NCBI GenBank assembly: GCA_024349765.1
Contig: AP026073.1
Span: 5,704,001 to 5,768,000 of the forward strand
From: Streptomyces nigrescens
GTDB lineage: Bacteria; Actinomycetota; Actinomycetes; Streptomycetales; Streptomycetaceae
DNA length: 64,000 nt
Direction of reading: 5' to 3'
Below, in pieces: positions 41,898-50,179 of the stretch. Under the pieces are notes generated by a model, which saw nothing but the letters and a program-made list of their open reading frames with translations, had not been told where the DNA came from and ran no database searches. A program made the position numbers and the translations under genes. Each line of letters begins with the position of its first letter. Within the stretch, counting starts at the first letter, position 1.

Positions 41898-43067
41898 CTA
41901 GCCGGGCACCACCTCCGGCAGCGGCTGTGGCGGGGGCGGGCCGACGTACCGGGCCGCCGGCCGGATGATCTTCGAATCCTCCGCCTGTTCCAGAATGTTG
42001 GCGCTCCAGCCGACGACCCTGGCCGCGCAGAAGGTGGGCGTGAACATCTCACGCGGCAGCCCGCACAGCTCCATCACGACGCCCGCGTAGAACTCCACGT
42101 TGATGTGCAGCTCGCGGCCCGGCTTGAGCTCGGCCAGGAGCGCCTCGGCGCGCGCCTCCACCTGGACGGCGAACTCCACCAGCGGGCCGCCGAATTCCTG
42201 GGCGATCCCCCGCAGCATCCGTGAGCGCGGGTCCTCGGTGCGGTAGACGGGATGCCCGAACCCCATGATCCGCTCGCCGCGCAGGACCCGTTCGCGGATC
42301 CAGGAATCGATCCGGTCCGGCGTGCCGATCGCGTCGAGCGTGTCCAGTGCCCGGCTGGGCGCTCCGCCGTGCAACGGCCCGGAGAGCGCGCCGACGGCTC
42401 CGACGAGGCAGGCCGCGAGGTCGGCACCGGTGGAGGTGATGACGCGGGCGGTGAACGTCGAGGCGTTGAAGCCGTGGTCGATCGTGGAGATCAGATAGGC
42501 CTCTATCGCCCGGACCCGGCGCGGATCCGGTTCCTCGCCGGTGAGCATGTAGAGGTAGTTGGCGGCGTGCCCCAGATCCGGCCGCGGCTCCACGGGCTGC
42601 TGTCCCTGCGCGAGCCGGTGCAGTGCGGTCAGCAGGGTTGGTACGGCAGCGACGGTGGCGAGCGCGTCGGCCCGCCGGCGGTCGGCGTCGATGTCGTACA
42701 GCGGCCGGAATCCGGCGCTCGCGCCGAGCAGCGACAGCGCGGTGCGCAGCCCGGCGAGCGGACCCGCGAGCGCTCCGGCCCGGGCCAGGGCGGGCAGTGC
42801 GTCGCGTACCGCCGCGGGCAGCGGGCGCAGCGCGGCGGTCTCGGCCTTGAAGGCCGCCAGCTGGACCGCGTCGGGCAGCGCGCCGTGGAACATCAGGTAC
42901 CAGACGTCCTCGAACGTGCGGGTCCGGGCCAGCTCGACGGCGGAGTACTGGCGGTAGTGGTAAAAGCCCTCGCGCCCCCGGACGTCTCCGAGTTGGGTCT
43001 CGGTGACGATGACGCCCGCGAGCCCGCGGGGTGCCTCGATGGGTGCGTTCGCCTCGGCGATCGGCAT
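41898..43067 (-). CDS. Citrate synthase-like protein
   Basis: This 389-residue protein belongs to the citrate synthase family, which condenses oxaloacetate with acetyl-CoA (or propionyl-CoA for methylcitrate synthases). The two catalytic histidines are present: His233 (GPLHGGAP) and His272 (GFGHPVYR). The position of the catalytic Asp (NVDFYSG in E. coli) is Glu325 here (INVEFYAGVVME). Start at 43067 after GAGGAG. It is divergent from an HTH-citrate synthase fusion gene with 114 bases between, which suggests joint regulation. It may be a paralogue with altered activity and not the main TCA enzyme. Confidence 0.92.
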   Translation of the reverse strand: MPIAEANAPIEAPRGLAGVIVTETQLGDVRGREGFYHYRQYSAVELARTRTFEDVWYLMFHGALPDAVQLAAFKAETAALRPLPAAVRDALPALARAGALAGPLAGLRTALSLLGASAGFRPLYDIDADRRRADALATVAAVPTLLTALHRLAQGQQPVEPRPDLGHAANYLYMLTGEEPDPRRVRAIEAYLISTIDHGFNASTFTARVITSTGADLAACLVGAVGALSGPLHGGAPSRALDTLDAIGTPDRIDSWIRERVLRGERIMGFGHPVYRTEDPRSRMLRGIAQEFGGPLVEFAVQVEARAEALLAELKPGRELHINVEFYAGVVMELCGLPREMFTPTFCAARVVGWSANILEQAEDSKIIRPAARYVGPPPPQPLPEVVPG

Positions 43068-43093
43068 GACAGCTCTCCTCGTTCTTCCTCCCC

Positions 43094-43154
43094 CAATATT
43101 GATTCGACTATCTATGCTTGACTCAACACTCGTCAATATTGATTGCATCAATAT
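43094..43154. promoter_or_regulatory. Shared operators between the divergent citrate synthase genes
   Basis: CAATATTGATT occurs at 43094-43104 and again at 43134-43144, exactly 40 bases apart (about four helical turns). The second copy is part of a perfect palindrome, ATATTGAT-TGC-ATCAATAT (43136-43154). These A/T-rich elements stand out strongly in a GC-rich genome and lie between the two starts. They look like binding sites for a dimeric regulator, plausibly the HTH-citrate synthase itself. Confidence 0.7.
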
Positions 43155-43181
43155 ATGGGTCAATGCAGGAGGGTCCTGGAC

Positions 43182-44471
43182 ATGGATGAGTCCGGGTACG
43201 GACGGGCTGGATACGGTGATCCCATGGCGGATCACGACACGGCGCAGGACACCGGCGAGCGACGGCTGAGCACGCGGGAGGCGGCCGACCGGCTCGGCGT
43301 GAAGCCCGAGACGGTCTATGCGTACGTCAGCCGCGGTCAGCTGACCAGCCACCGGGAACCGGGCAGCCGCGGCAGCACCTTCGACCCGAAGGAGGTCGAC
43401 GCGCTGGCCCGCCGCAGCGGCCGCCGCGAACCACCCGCCGCCGGCGCCGAGTTGGCGATCCGCACCGGCATCACACTGATCGACCGCGACCACTGCTACT
43501 TCCGTGGCGTGGACACCGCGGAGCTCGCCGCCCACTACAGCTACGAGGAGGTCGCGGAGTGGCTGTGGACCGGCGTGCTGCGCCGCGGCATCCGCTTCGC
43601 CGCCCCGCAGGACGCCCGAACCGCGGCCTGCCGCGCCGTACGGGCGCTGCCGCCGCACAGCGGGCCGATGGACCGGCTGCGGGTCGCGGTGATCGCCGCC
43701 GCGGCCGCCGATCCGCTGCGGTTCGACCTCTCCGAGGACGCCGTCCTCGGCACCGCTCGCAGCCTGATCCCGACCCTCGTCGACGCCCTCCCGGCGCTGG
43801 GTGAAGAACCCTCCACCACCGGACCGCTCGCCCCCCGGCTCTGGTCCCGGCTGACCGCGGAGCCGGCCGACGTCGCATCGCTGCGGGTCCTGGACGCCGC
43901 GCTGGTCCTGCTCATCGACCACGACCTCGCCGCCTCCACGCTCGCGGTCCGGGTCGCGGCCTCCGCCCGCGCCCATCCGTACGCGATCGTCTCGGCGGGC
44001 CTGGGGGCGCTGGACGGTCCGCTGCACGGCGCCGCGAGCGGGCTGGCGCACAGGATGCTGCTGGAGGTCCTGGACCGGGGCAGCGCGGCCGCCGTCGTGG
44101 CCGACCATCTGCGGGCCGGGCGCCGGGTACCGGGCCTGGGCCACCGCGTCTACCCGGGTGAGGACCCGCGCGCCGGCGTCCTCTTCCGGCTGCTGGCGGA
44201 CGTACCGCAGGCAGCCCCCGCCCTGCGGGCCGCCCGCGAGGTCGTCACCACCACGGCCCGCCACACGGAGCTCAACGCCAACGTCGACCTGGCACTCGCC
44301 GTGCTGACCGTCACGGCGGGGATGCCGCCCGAGGCGGGTGAAACGGTCTTCGCCCTCGCGCGCACCGCCGGCTGGATCGCGCATGCCCTGGAGGAATTCG
44401 ACGAGCGCCCACTGCGTATGCGCCCCAGCGGCCAGTACCACGGCCCACGCCCCCCGCAGCCGCTGCCGTGA
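43182..44471 (+). CDS. Citrate synthase fused to N-terminal helix-turn-helix domain
   Basis: This is a 429-residue protein. Residues about 28-75 form an excisionase/MerR-like HTH (LSTREAADRLGVKPETVYAY, then VSRGQL). A linker leads into a complete but divergent citrate synthase domain (about 90-425) with His282 (GPLHGAAS), His321 (GLGHRVYPGEDPR) and Asp369 (NANVDLAL). AGGAGG precedes the ATG at 43182. It could be a transcription factor that senses CoA esters or oxaloacetate through the enzyme-like domain and acts on the operators at 43094-43154. That is inference; similar fusions are seen in other Streptomyces without, to my knowledge, a settled function. Confidence 0.88.
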   Translation: MDESGYGRAGYGDPMADHDTAQDTGERRLSTREAADRLGVKPETVYAYVSRGQLTSHREPGSRGSTFDPKEVDALARRSGRREPPAAGAELAIRTGITLIDRDHCYFRGVDTAELAAHYSYEEVAEWLWTGVLRRGIRFAAPQDARTAACRAVRALPPHSGPMDRLRVAVIAAAAADPLRFDLSEDAVLGTARSLIPTLVDALPALGEEPSTTGPLAPRLWSRLTAEPADVASLRVLDAALVLLIDHDLAASTLAVRVAASARAHPYAIVSAGLGALDGPLHGAASGLAHRMLLEVLDRGSAAAVVADHLRAGRRVPGLGHRVYPGEDPRAGVLFRLLADVPQAAPALRAAREVVTTTARHTELNANVDLALAVLTVTAGMPPEAGETVFALARTAGWIAHALEEFDERPLRMRPSGQYHGPRPPQPLP

Positions 44472-44833
44472 GCGAGCCCACGCCGCCTTGGGCTCCCTCC
44501 CTGAGCGGGCAGAAGCGGGTCTGCGCGTCGGCCGTAAGCGGGCCCAAGCCCTCGTGTGCGTCTGCCGTGAGCACGCCCGAGCCCTCTTGCGCGTCGGCCA
44601 TGAGCGGCCCCGAGCCATCTCGCTCACCCGCCCTGAGCAGGCCCGAGCGGTCCGGCGTTCCTGCCGCGACGGGGAGCGAGTGGCCGGTCGTTCCCTCGCC
44701 GGCGATCCGTGAGCGATCCCGCGTCGCCGCCATGACGCGACGCCACTTCCCGTTTCCTGCGCCTTCCACGCAGGCGCACGAGCGGTCCGGCGTGCCCGAC
44801 GTCCGAACCATGAGGTTAGGCTCGCCTTCGTGA
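44468..44833 (+). CDS. Possible 121-residue repeat protein coupled to the HTH-citrate synthase gene
   Basis: A GTG overlapping the citrate synthase stop (GTGA) opens an ORF. Its middle consists of an 11-residue tandem repeat: CASAVSGPKPS, CASAVSTPEPS, CASAMSGPEPS and RSPALSRPERS. Third positions are moderately G/C-rich. It has no recognisable domain, and the minus strand is open too, so this may be noncoding repeat DNA. It runs through the iron box and overlaps the next start by four bases. If translated it would couple the citrate synthase and ferredoxin genes. Confidence 0.35.
   Translation: MSEPTPPWAPSLSGQKRVCASAVSGPKPSCASAVSTPEPSCASAMSGPEPSRSPALSRPERSGVPAATGSEWPVVPSPAIRERSRVAAMTRRHFPFPAPSTQAHERSGVPDVRTMRLGSPS
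44522..44653. repeat. Four tandem 33-bp repeats
   Basis: Four head-to-tail degenerate copies of a 33-base unit (core TGCGCGTCGGCCGTAAGCGG) lie between the HTH-citrate synthase and the ferredoxin genes. The fourth is the most diverged. Unit length is a multiple of three, so the reading frame is kept. Confidence 0.8.
44811..44829. promoter_or_regulatory. Candidate iron box (DmdR1/IdeR operator)
   Basis: TGAGGTTAGGCTCGCCTTC matches the 19-bp actinobacterial iron box TTAGGTTAGGCTCACCTAA at 15 positions, including the whole GGTTAGGCTC core. It directly abuts the GTG start of the ferredoxin gene at 44830. The embedded TAGGCT (44817-44822) would serve as a -10 for a leaderless transcript. Confidence 0.72.
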
Positions 44834-45774
44834 GTACCTGCGCCACTGCCTCCCGTAACGGGGCCGAACCGCTCGCCGGGACCTCGGCCACCGCCCGCAC
44901 CTGGTTGCTCATCGAGCAGACCGGCCCCTGGGGAGCCAAGGCGCTCACGGACAGCCACCTCGGCCCCGGACTCGGCCGGGCCCTGAACGCCGCGGCGGAC
45001 GGGACCGGCGTACGCATCGCCCTGATCCGGCGCCCGGGCCGCCATGCCGACTGCCACGGCGTCTCCCGCCGCCGGCTCTTCCTCGCGCACACCGCGCCGG
45101 GGCGCTCCTGGGTCCGCACGACCACCGTCACCGATCCCGGCGCCGCCCTCGGGCTGGACTTCGCCGCCCTCGGCGCGGGCGAACACCACGGCATCTGGGA
45201 ACCGCACTCCGGCGACCCGCTGGTCCTCGTCTGCACCAACGGCAAACGGGACCGTTGCTGCGCCCTGCTCGGCCGACCCCTGGCCGCGGAACTCGCCGCC
45301 GCCGGAATCGACACCTGGGAGGTCACCCACCTGGGCGGCCATCGCTTCTCCCCCACCCTTTTTCTCCTTCCTTACGGTTACGCCTACGGCCGTGCCTCGG
45401 CGCATCTGGTCAAGTCCGCCGTGGAGGCGGCGCGCAGTGGACGGATCGTCTTGGAGCACTGCCGTGGCCGTTCGGCCTGGGACCGCCCCGCCCAGGCGGC
45501 CGACCTCGCGGTCCGTGCCCGGATCCATGAGGACCGCGCGGACGCCCTCGACGTCGTACGGGTCGAGGCCCTGCCGCCCGCCCCCGACGCCACACCGGCC
45601 GGCAGTGCGGGACCGTCCTGGGGCGTCACGGTCGCGCACACGGACGGCCGGACCTGGCAGGTGACCGTCGAACAGCGCACCGACGGCGCTCCCGCGCCGG
45701 CCAGCTGCGGGGCACCCCTCCTTCCCCCGGCGCGGATGGCGGTCTTCTCGCTCACCGCCGCAGATCCGGCCTGA
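44830..45774 (+). CDS. Sucrase/ferredoxin-like (thioredoxin-fold [2Fe-2S]) protein
   Basis: This is a 314-residue protein. The C-terminal half contains the thioredoxin-like ferredoxin signature CTNGKRDRCC followed by HLGGHRFSPT, which together supply cysteines and a histidine for an iron-sulfur cluster. This is the sucraseferredoxin-like family seen in plants, fungi and actinobacteria, with a likely electron-transfer or reductase role. The iron box just before the start suggests repression by iron-bound DmdR1 and use in iron starvation, for example siderophore iron release; that is inference. The GTG start lacks an SD, consistent with leaderless translation. Confidence 0.88.
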   Translation: MSTCATASRNGAEPLAGTSATARTWLLIEQTGPWGAKALTDSHLGPGLGRALNAAADGTGVRIALIRRPGRHADCHGVSRRRLFLAHTAPGRSWVRTTTVTDPGAALGLDFAALGAGEHHGIWEPHSGDPLVLVCTNGKRDRCCALLGRPLAAELAAAGIDTWEVTHLGGHRFSPTLFLLPYGYAYGRASAHLVKSAVEAARSGRIVLEHCRGRSAWDRPAQAADLAVRARIHEDRADALDVVRVEALPPAPDATPAGSAGPSWGVTVAHTDGRTWQVTVEQRTDGAPAPASCGAPLLPPARMAVFSLTAADPA

Positions 45775-46078
45775 CTCCTTCACGACTTCGCGGACACCGA
45801 CCCGGCCACCGACACGGCCGTGTCGGCTCCGACACCGTCACGGACTGTGACGACTCTGCGAGAGTAAGCGGTCACGCTCCGCGACCGAAAGGCCTGTGGA
45901 TAACTCCCGCGAACCCGTCCTTCGCCGTCCACAGCCCGCTTGGCCGCTCCCGTCAACCCGCTCGGTCGCTCCCGTCGCGTCCCGGCCGACGCGCCCCGCG
46001 TGGCCACCCGGACACCCTCCGAATTCCTCGCCGCAGGGATTACCGGCCCGGCGGTCGGCCCGCTTACTGTTCGTCCGT
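45775..46078. other. Intergenic region upstream of the CitA-like kinase
   Basis: In this 304-base gap I see no gene. It contains TGTGGATAA at 45895-45903, a perfect E. coli-type DnaA box, with a GTCCACAG in opposite orientation about 25 bases on. TACTGT at about 46065 could be a -10 just before the kinase start. The 15-mer GCCTGTGGATAACTC around the DnaA-like box also occurs at about 338-352. Confidence 0.5.
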
Positions 46079-47893
46079 ATGGGCGAGAAGGAAGCGTCGG
46101 TTCCGCGCCCGAGCGCCACAGAGCCCTCGGGCCCCGCACCGTTTCCCGCCGGTGCCTCCGCCCCGAGCAAAGCGACCGCCCCGCTCAGCGCTGCCAAGGC
46201 ACGCACCACGGCCGGACCGCGCCTGACGCGCCCCCGGCTGGGCTGGCCGCGGCGCGTCTTCTCCCAGGTGCTGATGATGCAGCTGGCCATCGCCACGGGG
46301 GTCACCGCGCTGGCGACCGGCCTGTTCCTCGCCCCGCTCAGCGCCCAACTGGACGACCAGGCGATGCGCCGGGCGCTCGCGATCGCCCAGACCACCGCCG
46401 CCGAACCGCGTCTCGACGACGCGCTGGAGGCGTCCCGCCCGAGCCCGCACGGCCCCGTCCAGAACGAGGCGGAACGGATCCGCGCGGCCACCGGCGCCGA
46501 GTACGTCGTGATCATGGACAAGCGCGGGGTGCGCTGGTCCCACACCGATCCGGACGAGATCGGGCGCCACGTCTCCACCGACCCGAGCGCCGCGCTCTCC
46601 GGCCGTGAGGTCATGCAGATCGACGAGGGCACCCTCGGCCGCTCCGCGCGCGGCAAGGTCCCGTTGCGGGACGAGCACGGCAAGGTCGTCGGCGCGGTCT
46701 CGGTCGGCATCGCGTACGAGAGCGTGCAGGAGCGGCTGCTGTCCACCGTGCCCCAACTGCTCGCGTACGCGGGCGGGGCGCTCGCCGCCGGGGCACTGGC
46801 CGCCTATCTCGTCTCCCGCCGTCTCCAGCGGCGCACCCATGACCTGGCCTTCTCCGACATCTCCGCGCTGCTCGCCGAGCGGGAGGCGATGCTGCACGGC
46901 ATCCGGGAGGGCTTCGTCGCGCTCGACGGGCAGGGCCGGATCCGCCTGATGAACGACGAGGCGCAGCGCCTCCTCGATCTGCGCGCCGAGGACACCGGCC
47001 GCCCCCTGGAGGCCGCCCTTCCCCCGGGCCGTACGACCGATGTGCTGGCCGGCCGCGTCTCGGGCGCCGACCTGCTGGCGGTCAGCGGGCACCGGGTGCT
47101 GGTGGCGAACCGTATGCCGACCGACGACGGCGGCGCGGTGGTCACCCTGCGCGACCGCACGGAGCTGGAGCGGCTGGGCCGCGAACTCGACGGCACCCGC
47201 GGTCTCATCGACGCCCTCCGGGCCCAGGACCACGAGCACGCCAACCGGCTGCACACTCTCCTGGGCCTGCTCGAACTGGGGCTGCACGAGGAGGCCGTGG
47301 AGTTCGTGACCCGCGTTGTGGGCGTCCACCGGGCCACCGCGGAGCAGGTCACCGAGCGCATCCACGACCCGCTGCTGGCCGCCCTCCTGGTGGGCAAGGC
47401 CACCGTCGCCGCCGAACGGGGCGTGTCCCTGCGGATCGCGTCCGGCACCCGGCTGCCCGACCGCCTGATCGACCCGCACAGCCTGGTCACCGTCCTCGGC
47501 AATCTCGTCGACAACGCCCTGGACGCCACTGCCGGCGCGCCCGACGCCCAGGTGGAGGTGGAGGTGCGGGCCGAGGGACGGACCGCCGTCGTGCGCGTCG
47601 CCGACAACGGGCCGGGCGTGCCCGAGGAGCGCCGGGCCGAGATCTTCACCGAGGGCTGGACCACCAAGGAGCCGCCCGCCCACGGGCAGCGCGGCATCGG
47701 ACTCGCGCTCGTCCGCCGGCTCGCCGAGCGCTACGGGGGCGGCGCCGTGGTGGACGAACGACCAGGAGGCGGGGCCGTGTTCACCGTCACGGTCCCCGAT
47801 GCCCTCTCCGAGGAGCTTCCCGAGCCGGCCGGGATGGCCGGTGACCCCGGGGGCGCGCGCCGCGCCGAGGACGCCACGGAGGCAGGCCGGTGA
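46079..47893 (+). CDS. CitA/DcuS-family sensor histidine kinase
   Basis: This is a 604-residue protein. A long Pro/Ser-rich cytoplasmic N-terminus precedes TM1 at about residues 62-85. The periplasmic-type PDC/CitA sensor domain (about 90-215) contains YVVIMDKRGVRWSHTDPDEI. TM2 lies at about 220-245, followed by a PAS domain (REGFVALDGQGRIRLMNDEA), the DcuS-type H-box QDHEHANRLHTLLGLLELG, and the HATPase (NLVDNALDA, GIGLALVRRL). Such kinases sense carboxylates such as citrate or fumarate. It overlaps the regulator gene by four bases. No SD precedes the ATG, so the start is less certain. Confidence 0.88.
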   Translation: MGEKEASVPRPSATEPSGPAPFPAGASAPSKATAPLSAAKARTTAGPRLTRPRLGWPRRVFSQVLMMQLAIATGVTALATGLFLAPLSAQLDDQAMRRALAIAQTTAAEPRLDDALEASRPSPHGPVQNEAERIRAATGAEYVVIMDKRGVRWSHTDPDEIGRHVSTDPSAALSGREVMQIDEGTLGRSARGKVPLRDEHGKVVGAVSVGIAYESVQERLLSTVPQLLAYAGGALAAGALAAYLVSRRLQRRTHDLAFSDISALLAEREAMLHGIREGFVALDGQGRIRLMNDEAQRLLDLRAEDTGRPLEAALPPGRTTDVLAGRVSGADLLAVSGHRVLVANRMPTDDGGAVVTLRDRTELERLGRELDGTRGLIDALRAQDHEHANRLHTLLGLLELGLHEEAVEFVTRVVGVHRATAEQVTERIHDPLLAALLVGKATVAAERGVSLRIASGTRLPDRLIDPHSLVTVLGNLVDNALDATAGAPDAQVEVEVRAEGRTAVVRVADNGPGVPEERRAEIFTEGWTTKEPPAHGQRGIGLALVRRLAERYGGGAVVDERPGGGAVFTVTVPDALSEELPEPAGMAGDPGGARRAEDATEAGR

Positions 47894-48564
47894 TCGACGT
47901 ACTGATCGTGGACGACGATGCGCAGGTCGCGCGGATCAACGCCGCCTATGTCGCCAAGGTGCAGGGTTTCCGGGTCAGTTGTGTCGCACATACGGCGGCG
48001 GAGGCCCTGGCCGCCCTGGAGACACATCCCGTCGAGCTGATCCTGCTGGACCACTACCTGCCCGACCGGACCGGCCTCCAACTGGTCGGCGAACTACGGC
48101 GTCGTGGCCTCTTCACCGACGTGATCATGGTGACGGCGGCCCGCGACATCGCGACCGTACAGGCCGCGATGCGGCACGGCGCGCTCCAGTACCTGGTCAA
48201 GCCGTTCACCTTCGCTGGCCTGCGCTCCAAGCTGGAGGGCTATGCGGCGCTGCACCGCACCTTCGCCGGCGGCGGGCAGGCCGAGCAGTCCGAAGTCGAC
48301 CGGCTATTCGGCGCGTTGGGCGCCGCCAACGCCGGGCCCGCCGAGCTGCCCAAGGGGCACTCCACCGCCACCGCCGACCGTGTGCGCGCGGTGCTGCGCT
48401 CCGCGGACACCCCGCTCTCGGCCCAGGACGTCGCCCACCGGGCCGGACTGAGCCGGCAGACCGCCCAGCGCTATCTGAAGCTCCTGGAACGCGCCGGCCG
48501 GATCCGCCTCACCCTCCGGTACGGCGAGACGGGCCGCCCGGAACACCGCTACGAATGGGTCTGA
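47890..48564 (+). CDS. CitB/DcuR-family response regulator
   Basis: This is a 224-residue protein. Receiver domain with acidic DDD at 8-10, phospho-acceptor Asp54 (LILLDHYLPD) and Lys in YLVKPFTF. The C-terminal HTH of the CitB type (LSAQDVAHRAGLSRQTAQRY, then LKLLERAGRI) binds DNA. It forms a two-component system with the overlapping CitA-like kinase. The convergent solute symporter operon next door is a plausible target, since such systems usually control organic-acid uptake; this is inference. Confidence 0.9.
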   Translation: MIDVLIVDDDAQVARINAAYVAKVQGFRVSCVAHTAAEALAALETHPVELILLDHYLPDRTGLQLVGELRRRGLFTDVIMVTAARDIATVQAAMRHGALQYLVKPFTFAGLRSKLEGYAALHRTFAGGGQAEQSEVDRLFGALGAANAGPAELPKGHSTATADRVRAVLRSADTPLSAQDVAHRAGLSRQTAQRYLKLLERAGRIRLTLRYGETGRPEHRYEWV

Positions 48565-48577
48565 CCCCTGGCGGAGG

Positions 48578-50179
48578 CTAGACCGCGCCCGCCCCGGTGA
48601 GCGCCCGTACCTCCGTCTCCGCGTGCCGGGCCGGATCGGCGGCCTCCGGGGAGAGCAGTGTTCCCAGCCAGCCCATCAGGAAGCCCAAGGGGATCGAGAC
48701 GGCCCCCGGGTTGGACAGCGGGAAGACGGCGAAGTCCAGGTGGGGGAAGAGGGATTCCGGGCCTCCGGAGACCACGGGTGAGAGGACCACCAGGGTGAGC
48801 GCGGGGACCAGCCCGCCGTAGACGGACCAGACGGCCCCCCGTGTCGTGAAGCGGCGCCAGAACAGGGCGTAGAGCAGGGCCGGCACATTGGCCGAGGCGG
48901 CGACCGCGAAGGCCAGGCCCACCAGGAAGGCGATGTTCAGGTCCTGGGCGAGCAGCGCCAGGGCGATGGCGACGGCTCCGACCGCGACCGCGGCGAGCCG
49001 TGCCACGGCCACCTCGCGGCGCTGCGCGTCCCGTACCGTGCCGCGCGGGCGGCGCAGCGAGGCGTACAGGTCGTGGGCCACGGACGACGAGGCGAGGGTG
49101 ATGCCGGCGACCACGGCCAGGATGGTGGCGAAGGCGACCGCGGCCACCACGGCGAACAGAACCGTTCCTCCGGTGGAGCCCGCCCCGCCTCCCAGGTCGA
49201 CGGCGAGCAGCGGAACGGCGGTGTTGCCCGCCGGGTTGGAGGCCCGGACCGCATCGCTGCCCACTACGGCGGCGGCCCCGAAGCCGAGCACGACGGTCAT
49301 CAGGTAGAAGCCGCCGATCAGCCCGATGGACCAGCCGACGGAACGGCGGGCGGCCCGCGCCGTGGGCACGGTGTAGAACCGCGACAGGATGTGCGGCAGC
49401 CCCGCCGTCCCCAGGACGAGCGCCAGGCCGAGGCTGAGGAAGTCCAGCCGCGCGGTCCAGTCACCGCCGTATTTGAGACCCGGCGCGAGGAACGCCCGTC
49501 CGTGGCCGCTGCGTTCGGCGGCGGTGGTCAGCAGTGCGCCGAGGTCCCCGTGGAACCGGATCACCACCAGGACGGTCAGGGCCACGGCCCCGCCCAGGAG
49601 GAGCACCGCCTTGACCACCTGGATCCAGGTGGTGGCCCGCATCCCGCCGAAGGCGACGTAGACCACCATGAGGGCGCCCACGCCGATCACCATCCAGGTA
49701 CGGGCCTGCGGTCCGGCGCCGCCGAGCAGAAGCGCCACCAGACTGCCGGCACCGACCATCTGCGCCACCAGATAGAGCACGGACACGGTGACGGACGCGG
49801 CGCCGACCGCGATCCGCACGGGGCGCTCCCGCATCCGTGCGGCGACGACATCGGCGAGGGTGAACCGCCCGCAGTTCCGGACGAGTTCGGCCACCAGGAA
49901 GAGCACGAGCAGCCAGGCGACGAGGAAGCCGACCGAATACAGCAGCCCGTCGTAGCCGAAGAGGGCGATCAGCCCGGTGACGCCGAGGAAGGACGCGGCG
50001 GACATGTAGTCCCCCGCGATGGCGAAACCATTCTCCATGGGGGAGAAGAGCCTCCCGCCGGCGTAGAACTCCTCCACGGAGCCACGCCTGCGGCGTCCCG
50101 CCCAGAGGGTGATCGCCAGGGTGAGCGCGATGAAGGCGCTGACCAGAGTCAGGGCGAGGGTCTCGTGGCCGCCGGTCAC
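48578..50179 (-). CDS. Sodium:solute symporter (acetate/ActP-like)
   Basis: This 533-residue protein of the SSS family has about 13 membrane helices. The signature region SVEEFYAGGRLFSPMENGFA and IAGDYMSAASFLG is that of ActP/MctC-type monocarboxylate transporters. It probably takes up acetate, propionate or pyruvate with sodium or protons. The GTG start at 50179 overlaps the DUF485 gene by four bases, the usual pairing of a small DUF485 protein with ActP. Confidence 0.92.
   Translation of the reverse strand: MTGGHETLALTLVSAFIALTLAITLWAGRRRRGSVEEFYAGGRLFSPMENGFAIAGDYMSAASFLGVTGLIALFGYDGLLYSVGFLVAWLLVLFLVAELVRNCGRFTLADVVAARMRERPVRIAVGAASVTVSVLYLVAQMVGAGSLVALLLGGAGPQARTWMVIGVGALMVVYVAFGGMRATTWIQVVKAVLLLGGAVALTVLVVIRFHGDLGALLTTAAERSGHGRAFLAPGLKYGGDWTARLDFLSLGLALVLGTAGLPHILSRFYTVPTARAARRSVGWSIGLIGGFYLMTVVLGFGAAAVVGSDAVRASNPAGNTAVPLLAVDLGGGAGSTGGTVLFAVVAAVAFATILAVVAGITLASSSVAHDLYASLRRPRGTVRDAQRREVAVARLAAVAVGAVAIALALLAQDLNIAFLVGLAFAVAASANVPALLYALFWRRFTTRGAVWSVYGGLVPALTLVVLSPVVSGGPESLFPHLDFAVFPLSNPGAVSIPLGFLMGWLGTLLSPEAADPARHAETEVRALTGAGAV

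Follow-up and report, generated by a model that had tools for sequence, protein, structure and literature searches.

Can a citrate synthase serve as a transcription regulator? The question is raised by a divergent gene pair of Streptomyces nigrescens, located in a stretch of 64,000 nucleotides (assembly GCA_024349765.1, contig AP026073.1, positions 5,704,001 to 5,768,000; hereafter the window). Both citrate synthase open reading frames named in the original prediction are present, at 41898-43067 on the minus strand and at 43182-44471 on the plus strand. The plus-strand product joins an N-terminal helix-turn-helix (HTH) to a citrate synthase (CS) domain and is called HTH-CS here, and the minus-strand product is called the partner. 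The Pfam domain Citrate_synt (PF00285) is matched at 216 bits by HTH-CS and at 375 bits by the partner (cut-off 27), which has no other Pfam domain. The HTH had been described as excisionase/MerR-like; HTH_17 is matched above its cut-off (29.9 versus 27 bits), but the MerR label is not borne out, the Pfam models MerR (22.4 versus 28.2 bits) and MerR_1 (19.5 versus 21.6 bits) both falling short. In NCBIfam, the partner exceeds the cut-off of PRK12350 'citrate synthase' and HTH-CS exceeds none. The solved protein closest in sequence to the partner is 2c6x (Citrate synthase 1), which we take to be CitA of B. subtilis. The 9.3-Mb S. nigrescens genome has four Citrate_synt genes.

Sequence comparison makes it probable that HTH-CS is a widespread one-component regulator that uses the CS fold as a sensor and controls both itself and its partner. 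The same comparison establishes the fusion, the monophyly of its CS part, the divergent pairing, the conservation of an operator in the shared spacer, and the linkage of that operator to HTH-CS and to both promoters. The operator contains the palindrome ATATTGAT-N3-ATCAATAT, which has no other match at up to three mismatches in the window and none in 100 shuffles; it is not due to chance. The strict form, TTGATTNNATCAA, occurs once in the whole genome, at this spacer, and the other citrate synthase genes of S. nigrescens are therefore without it. A relaxed form, TCAAYNTTGAYn(1-7)TCAA, occurs twice, once in this spacer and once as TCAATCTTGACCCGGGCTCAA at G000:C1:8016157-8016177. The perfect N3 palindrome claimed at the outset is thus real, but its outer AT pair is not conserved, and the core kept in the genus is ATTGATTnAATCAAT.

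Among 392 Streptomyces genomes, 245 encode HTH-CS (E<=1e-38) and 234 the partner (E<=1e-110); 233 have both, 12 HTH-CS only and one the partner only. The operator pattern at up to two mismatches is found in 237 of the 392, and a reversed-pattern control in one. It is present in 233 of the 245 genomes with HTH-CS versus 4 of the 147 without (both 233, operator only 4, HTH-CS only 12, neither 143). These joint counts are made at genome level, adjacency being established in the loci read, and shared inheritance of one spacer explains part of them. A gapless stack of 70 distinct genus spacers, which omits non-divergent and broken-partner loci, has one conserved block, TTGATTCGACTGTCCATGCTTGACTnAATnnCTGTCAATATTGATTGAATCAAT; the operator is found in 68 of the 70 at up to three mismatches, a rate biased because 25 of the spacers came from loci fetched by operator search. 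The four operator-only genomes are G021, G081, G199 and G380. In the loci read, no CS was found at the G199 or G380 site, and the former lies between genes that resemble, by eye, a major facilitator superfamily transporter and a flavin adenine dinucleotide (FAD) enzyme.

Rearranged genomes separate the left block from the palindrome. The pair is no longer divergent in G032, and a separate palindrome stands at each gene; ahead of its HTH-CS the palindrome is perfect, but both the left TTGATT and the partner -35 are decayed. A relocated partner copy retains the conserved block in G316. The partner is lost in G250, where the palindrome alone remains ahead of HTH-CS; G299 is similar but degraded, and in G013 the partner and the palindrome are both gone. 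G400 and G341 keep the palindrome beside a broken partner. The G341 locus (L111, G341:C4) has two partner 5' fragments, each adjoining its own operator, ahead of HTH-CS. Conversely, G027 has the partner without HTH-CS; it retains ACTGTCCATG and has lost the palindrome (one such genome was read). The palindrome is thus linked to HTH-CS and to both promoters across the rearranged genomes, as judged from their sequences. The operator is missing from 7 of the 12 partner-less HTH-CS genomes versus 5 of the 233 with a partner, and the partner is therefore a main user of the operator.

The protein and its site are found together far beyond the genus. A phylum search found relatives (E<=1e-36) in 42 of 346 genomes. 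In a second set of 25 distant loci picked by whole-protein similarity (22 from the phylum search plus L036, L037 and L039), the core TCAAYNTTGAY lies within 300 bp upstream in 21, with the third half-site in 20, and a divergent CS, 42-50% identical to the partner, stands upstream in 17. Named genomes were scanned with the recognition-helix peptide TLYAYVSRG and a CS motif, and the best 80 of 570 loci were kept, a non-random sample in whose selection the operator played no part. Judged by titles, HTH-CS occurs in records of Actinomycetota, Pseudomonadota, Chloroflexi, Gemmatimonadetes, Myxococcota and others, and one match lies in a 541-kb Deinococcus record of a plasmid collection. Ten of the 80 loci without an N-terminal match were excluded before counting. 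In the other 70, the core occurs within 300 bp upstream in 63 and the core plus third half-site in 54. Among 205 control stretches, 2 have the core and none has the third half-site as well; for 3500 dinucleotide shuffles the corresponding figures are 8 and 0. The third half-site follows after a gap of 3 in the 16 measurable Streptomyces-like loci, and among 37 others, 30 have a gap of 6 or 7. A divergent CS is present within 250 nt in 52 of the 70 loci and farther away in 5; in 13, the available flank has none.

Whole far genomes give a similar picture, with the operator pattern in 28 of 33 and the reversed control in 0 of 33. The idea of a broader regulon in other phyla was abandoned: seven stretches with extra operator matches (two from Paraburkholderia, two from Chloroflexi, and one each from Pseudovibrio, Mesorhizobium and an actinobacterial metagenome-assembled genome (MAG)) had no CS, CoA-transferase or other reference gene. 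HTH_17 is matched at E<=0.01 by 16 of 16 members of an aligned set (A2), and an alignment of 16 members obtained by whole-protein search shows no variation at most positions of the recognition-helix region; the invariance of this region in the 80 named loci is partly a product of selection because TLYAYVSRG served as the search pattern. In Caulobacter, the genus of one MAG locus, HTH-CS occurs in 38 of 41 genomes. Of the 20 loci read there, 19 carry TCAATCTTGATCAAT[AG]TAATCAA, 18 of these with a divergent partner in the stretch, and identities to 2c6x over the aligned parts are about 34-37% for the partner and 28-35% for HTH-CS. The original prediction had proposed conservation of the palindrome next to homologues as a check, and the palindrome is indeed kept with the pair in Actinomycetota and as far away as Pseudomonadota and Chloroflexota. 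The outcome named there as a refutation, a lack of palindromes upstream of orthologous pairs, was thus looked for and not observed.

The genus spacers also bear on the promoters (Table 1). The HTH-CS start conserved in relatives is ATG 43224, 6 nt 3' of a TACGGT -10 box. In 67 of the 70 distinct spacers a TAnSGT box stands 6-8 nt ahead of an in-frame start, which indicates ATG 43224 and a leaderless HTH-CS transcript in the window. The start proposed earlier, 43182, is preceded by AGGAGGG but seems less likely; relatives favour a spacer of 156 bp (43068-43223) over the 114 bases first given. On the minus strand, a partner promoter of the form TTGAC[AG]-18-GA[CT]AGT occurs in 61 of the 70 spacers, and the left block, as TTGAYYnnACTGTCYA, in 53. 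Two CAATATTGATT elements are present as reported, at 43094 and 43134, 40 bases apart, but of the first only TTGATT is conserved, and it belongs to a separate block that can be aligned by eye with a published MtrA site. Operators of the MerR family lie within a -35/-10 spacer of 19-20 bp. That placement is not found here: the -35 and -10 of the partner promoter are separated by 18, and the palindrome is located upstream of this -35. The distance from the operator to the HTH-CS -10 box varies among loci; helical phasing was considered, with clusters at 6, 15-17 and 28-30, and rejected, as on unique distances the observed value is equalled or exceeded in 62.6% of random sets.

Table 1. Features of the divergent citrate synthase locus (positions in the window)
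Feature	Position	Strand	Remark
HTH-CS gene (P0001)	43224..44471, alternative in-frame start 43182	+	HTH_17 fused to CS domain
Partner citrate synthase (P0002)	41898..43067	-	over NCBIfam PRK12350 cut-off
HTH_17 domain	43266..43415	+	recognition-helix region TVYAYVSRG
CS domain of HTH-CS (PF00285)	43455..44426	+	Pfam
Operator core TCAATATTGAT-TGC-ATCAA, three half-sites	43133..43151		motif searches, genus and far comparison
Perfect palindrome ATATTGAT-N3-ATCAATAT	43136-43154		window search
HTH-CS -10 box TACGGT	43212..43217	+	6 nt ahead of ATG 43224, leaderless arrangement
Partner promoter TTGACG-18-GATAGT	43107..43136	-	genus spacer stack
Left conserved block TTGATTCGACTATCTATG	43099..43116		overlaps partner -10
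TTGACT half-site-like repeat	43118..43123	+	between left block and operator; conserved in genus
His247 of HTH-CS	43920-43922	+	alignment
His282 of HTH-CS, active-site His	44025..44027	+	alignment
His321 of HTH-CS	44142-44144	+	alignment
Asp369 of HTH-CS	44286-44288	+	alignment
Glu325 of partner, replacing catalytic Asp (NVEFYAG)	42093..42095	-	alignment

A second kind of gene is associated with the same site. A coenzyme A (CoA)-transferase family III gene is divergent from HTH-CS in four Paraburkholderia loci, in Pandoraea and in a Dermabacter MAG, and in these six loci the available flank has no CS beside HTH-CS. The six enzymes carry an N-terminal extension; three were identified by Pfam and the others by similarity. 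Among the 25 neighbour clusters listed, only CoA-transferase recurs across several groups besides the pair. The CoA-transferases of L207 and L238 are more distant relatives. In Streptomyces, among the matches listed, G267, G170 and G326 have a second operator directly before a CoA-transferase homologue (37-43% identical). A CoA-transferase match was found in 98 of 150 Streptomyces genomes, and 90 promoters were read: the palindrome TTGAn5TCAA is present at the unlinked gene in 22 of 54 genomes with HTH-CS versus 1 of 36 without. The first count omits G164 and G165, where the palindrome is visible (24 of 54 if added), and a looser count, which includes some non-promoter matches, gives 23 of 54 versus 1 of 36. 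For homologues of at least 72% identity the figures are 22 of 32 versus 1 of 11 (Fisher 0.001, uncorrected for phylogeny). G013, G131 and G134 have the CoA-transferase palindrome and, at the thresholds used, neither partner nor spacer operator. The promoter of the S. nigrescens homologue has no TTGAn5TCAA palindrome. Eight Streptomyces promoters without it (L290, L291, L293, L297, L307, L329, L334, L341) have, at about the same place, another palindrome resembling TGGCAC-N3-GTGCCA, which suggests a different regulator.

The two proteins also differ in their active sites. As first claimed, HTH-CS keeps both catalytic His and the Asp, as His282, His321 and Asp369, presumably equivalent to H264, H305 and D362 of the E. 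coli enzyme. Among 71 HTH-CS proteins, H282, D369 and R414 are each retained in 71, and H321 and His247 in 70. An impression from motif searches that one lineage (f27) had lost the catalytic His was dropped, the alignment placing the His there. In the partners, Glu replaces the catalytic Asp in 55 of the 56 with a residue at that position, the other being a Stenotrophomonas CS 1177 nt from HTH-CS, and 2c6x has the same Glu (NVEFYAA). By these counts, the DNA-binding paralogue carries the canonical catalytic set and the lone enzyme the variant one. A further CS of S. nigrescens (L003) is also of the Glu type (NVEFWAA), as in a subfamily of Glu citrate synthases. A second HTH-CS paralogue, L039 (G003:C22), keeps the HTH and has lost His282 (GTAPGAA) and His247; a canonical citrate synthase adjoins it in the same orientation. 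The HTH-CS proteins are monophyletic (43 of 43, support 0.93) in a tree built from 88 CS domains without the HTH. Distances among HTH-CS and among partners correlate (Mantel r 0.71, 35 pairs; uncorrected for shared species history).

Several features surround the pair. The gene at 44830-45774 has no NCBIfam match and corresponds by position to the sucrase/ferredoxin-like SCO5830. A DcuS/DcuR-like two-component system and an MctC-type monocarboxylate symporter (NCBIfam) lie downstream at 45896-50140, and DcuS homologues occur within 4 kb in most named Streptomyces loci. HTH-CS and the partner, proteins about 35% identical, end in near-identical proline-rich tails (PPQPLP; 44440-44471 and 41898-41942).

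Two published gene pairs correspond to this one. The S. coelicolor genes SCO5831/SCO5832 (citA3/citA4) have the same neighbours, SCO5830, sucrase/ferredoxin-like, and SCO5829, a sensor kinase, according to excerpts of one study (PMC9739823), and are most probably the orthologous pair. In excerpts of a second study, MtrA binds a probe of their spacer at the site TTGACTTAACTGTCCA, and transcripts of both genes are raised in an mtrA mutant at late times; these excerpts describe both products as citrate synthases and report no HTH or operator role for SCO5831 (PMC12323332). By eye, the MtrA site aligns with the left block of the window at 43099-43114. In C. crescentus, CitB and CitC (CCNA_03757/03758) are 37% and 32% identical to B. 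subtilis CitA, and an E. coli gltA mutant is complemented by CitB and not by CitC, according to the excerpted text (PMC7083601). CitC is probably HTH-CS, and CitB the partner, because the identities match those of the Caulobacter proteins to 2c6x and the locus numbers are consecutive. The paper concerns CitA moonlighting, and the word HTH is absent from its text (PMC7083601).

If the regulator reading is right, the HTH-CS gene product would be a citrate synthase turned one-component transcription regulator. With the HTH at its N-terminus it would bind the operator TCAAYNTTGAT-n-ATCAA, which has three half-sites, in the spacer between the divergent genes, and would thereby control the leaderless HTH-CS promoter and the promoter of the CitA-type Glu-variant partner. 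The sensor would be the CS domain, whose active-site residues are intact; its ligand would most likely be a substrate or product of citrate synthase (oxaloacetate, citrate or an acyl-CoA), with a consequent change in DNA binding. Repression, lifted by ligand, seems the likeliest sign because the CoA-transferase palindrome lies just upstream of a -10-like CATAGT (by eye), a core-promoter place; the position of the spacer palindrome upstream of the partner -35 would also allow activation. The same regulon may, in some relatives, include a CoA-transferase family III gene, neighbouring or unlinked. MtrA would work on the left part of the spacer, and the arrangement suggests two sites for two proteins, the left block for MtrA and the palindrome on the right for HTH-CS. 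We infer direct DNA binding from the conservation of the operator; ligand and sign are likewise inferences. The original idea of an enzyme-fold sensor regulating its metabolic neighbour has gained strong comparative support, with a palindrome that is conserved with the pair, follows the separated genes and is lost in G027. A bolder version is put forward tentatively: HTH-CS proteins might be a pan-bacterial family of dedicated sensors whose complete CS active site now works as a receptor for metabolites. Oxaloacetate and acyl-CoA (or citrate) would close the CS domain much as they do in the enzyme; this closure, which slow turnover might undo, would shift the HTH pair on a near-invariant operator, and the Asp-type sensor and the Glu-type enzyme would read the same pools as a feedback pair.

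Several observations weigh against a regulator that acts through this operator. Twelve of the 245 HTH-CS Streptomyces genomes lack it at up to two mismatches, three of them having an indel version. The exact core was not found in L039, L168 and L174 of the second set, whose L157 begins at a contig end; among the 70 named loci, four have the core with one mismatch and three (L209, L224, L246) have no recognisable core, with two or three mismatches at best. Phasing of the operator to the -10 box is not significant on unique distances, and loss of the spacer operator from 7 of the 12 partner-less genomes, HTH-CS being kept, counters strict autoregulation. The exact CoA-transferase palindrome is absent from 32 of the 54 HTH-CS genomes, S. 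nigrescens included, and its association with HTH-CS is confounded by phylogeny. The partners are not monophyletic in the CS tree. The retained active-site residues of HTH-CS are compatible with an ordinary enzyme, and MtrA is the only protein shown, in the excerpts of the cited literature, to bind this spacer.

These points can be read in other ways. HTH-CS could be a trigger enzyme, catalytically active as a citrate or methylcitrate synthase and at the same time a DNA binder that couples catalysis to regulation, as the near-complete conservation of H282, H321, D369 and R414 would suggest; this is somewhat unlikely, given that CitC, the probable Caulobacter orthologue, fails to complement gltA where CitB succeeds (PMC7083601, as excerpted), and that L039 keeps its HTH yet has lost His282 and His247. 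A mixed dimer of HTH-CS and the Glu-type partner, in which HTH-CS is both a regulatory enzyme subunit and a DNA binder, would account for the pairing across phyla, the correlated distances, and the division between Asp in HTH-CS (71 of 71) and Glu in the partners. It is nevertheless unlikely, since 12 of the 245 Streptomyces genomes have HTH-CS without a partner at the threshold used and the Mantel correlation is expected from common species history. The spacer might also be conserved only for MtrA or another global regulator, HTH-CS being no more than a paralogous enzyme whose HTH is vestigial. The binding of MtrA to the S. coelicolor spacer and the late rise of both transcripts in the mtrA mutant (PMC12323332, as excerpted) speak for this reading, but it is very improbable: the MtrA site aligns with the left block and not with the palindrome, G027 keeps part of the left block and loses the palindrome whereas G250 and G299 do the opposite, and phyla distant from Streptomyces have the palindrome upstream of HTH-CS too.

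Citrate synthase is the entry to the tricarboxylic acid cycle, and a widespread regulator of the predicted kind would report directly, through transcription, on oxaloacetate, acyl-CoA or citrate. Such a regulator would account for the neighbouring citrate synthase genes that are annotated in many genomes as redundant enzymes, offer a ready-made biosensor scaffold and show with unusual clarity how a protein and its DNA site can stay together across phyla. Two tractable laboratory organisms, S. coelicolor and C. crescentus, very probably have the pair.

A literature search of open-licence papers, mostly of listings, for such a fusion or for the S. coelicolor genes found no paper describing an HTH-citrate synthase regulator. 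The CS sensor fold and its operator appear undescribed, whereas other enzymes provide known examples of a domain that has become a regulator. In B. subtilis, the LysR-type regulator CitR is encoded divergently from the minor citrate synthase CitA. At the S. nigrescens locus, a CitA-type citrate synthase (Glu) likewise stands divergent from its putative dedicated regulator, but this one joins an HTH_17 head to a citrate synthase and is not of the LysR type. With MerR, BldC and excisionase-type proteins HTH-CS shares the HTH_17 match and weak MerR matches; it differs from them in that its C-terminal part is an entire metabolic enzyme and that the MerR models stay below cut-off. PutA, BirA and NadR are enzyme-regulator fusions with demonstrated catalysis. 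Like them, HTH-CS has a metabolic enzyme and a DNA-binding domain on one chain, although their enzyme folds are others.

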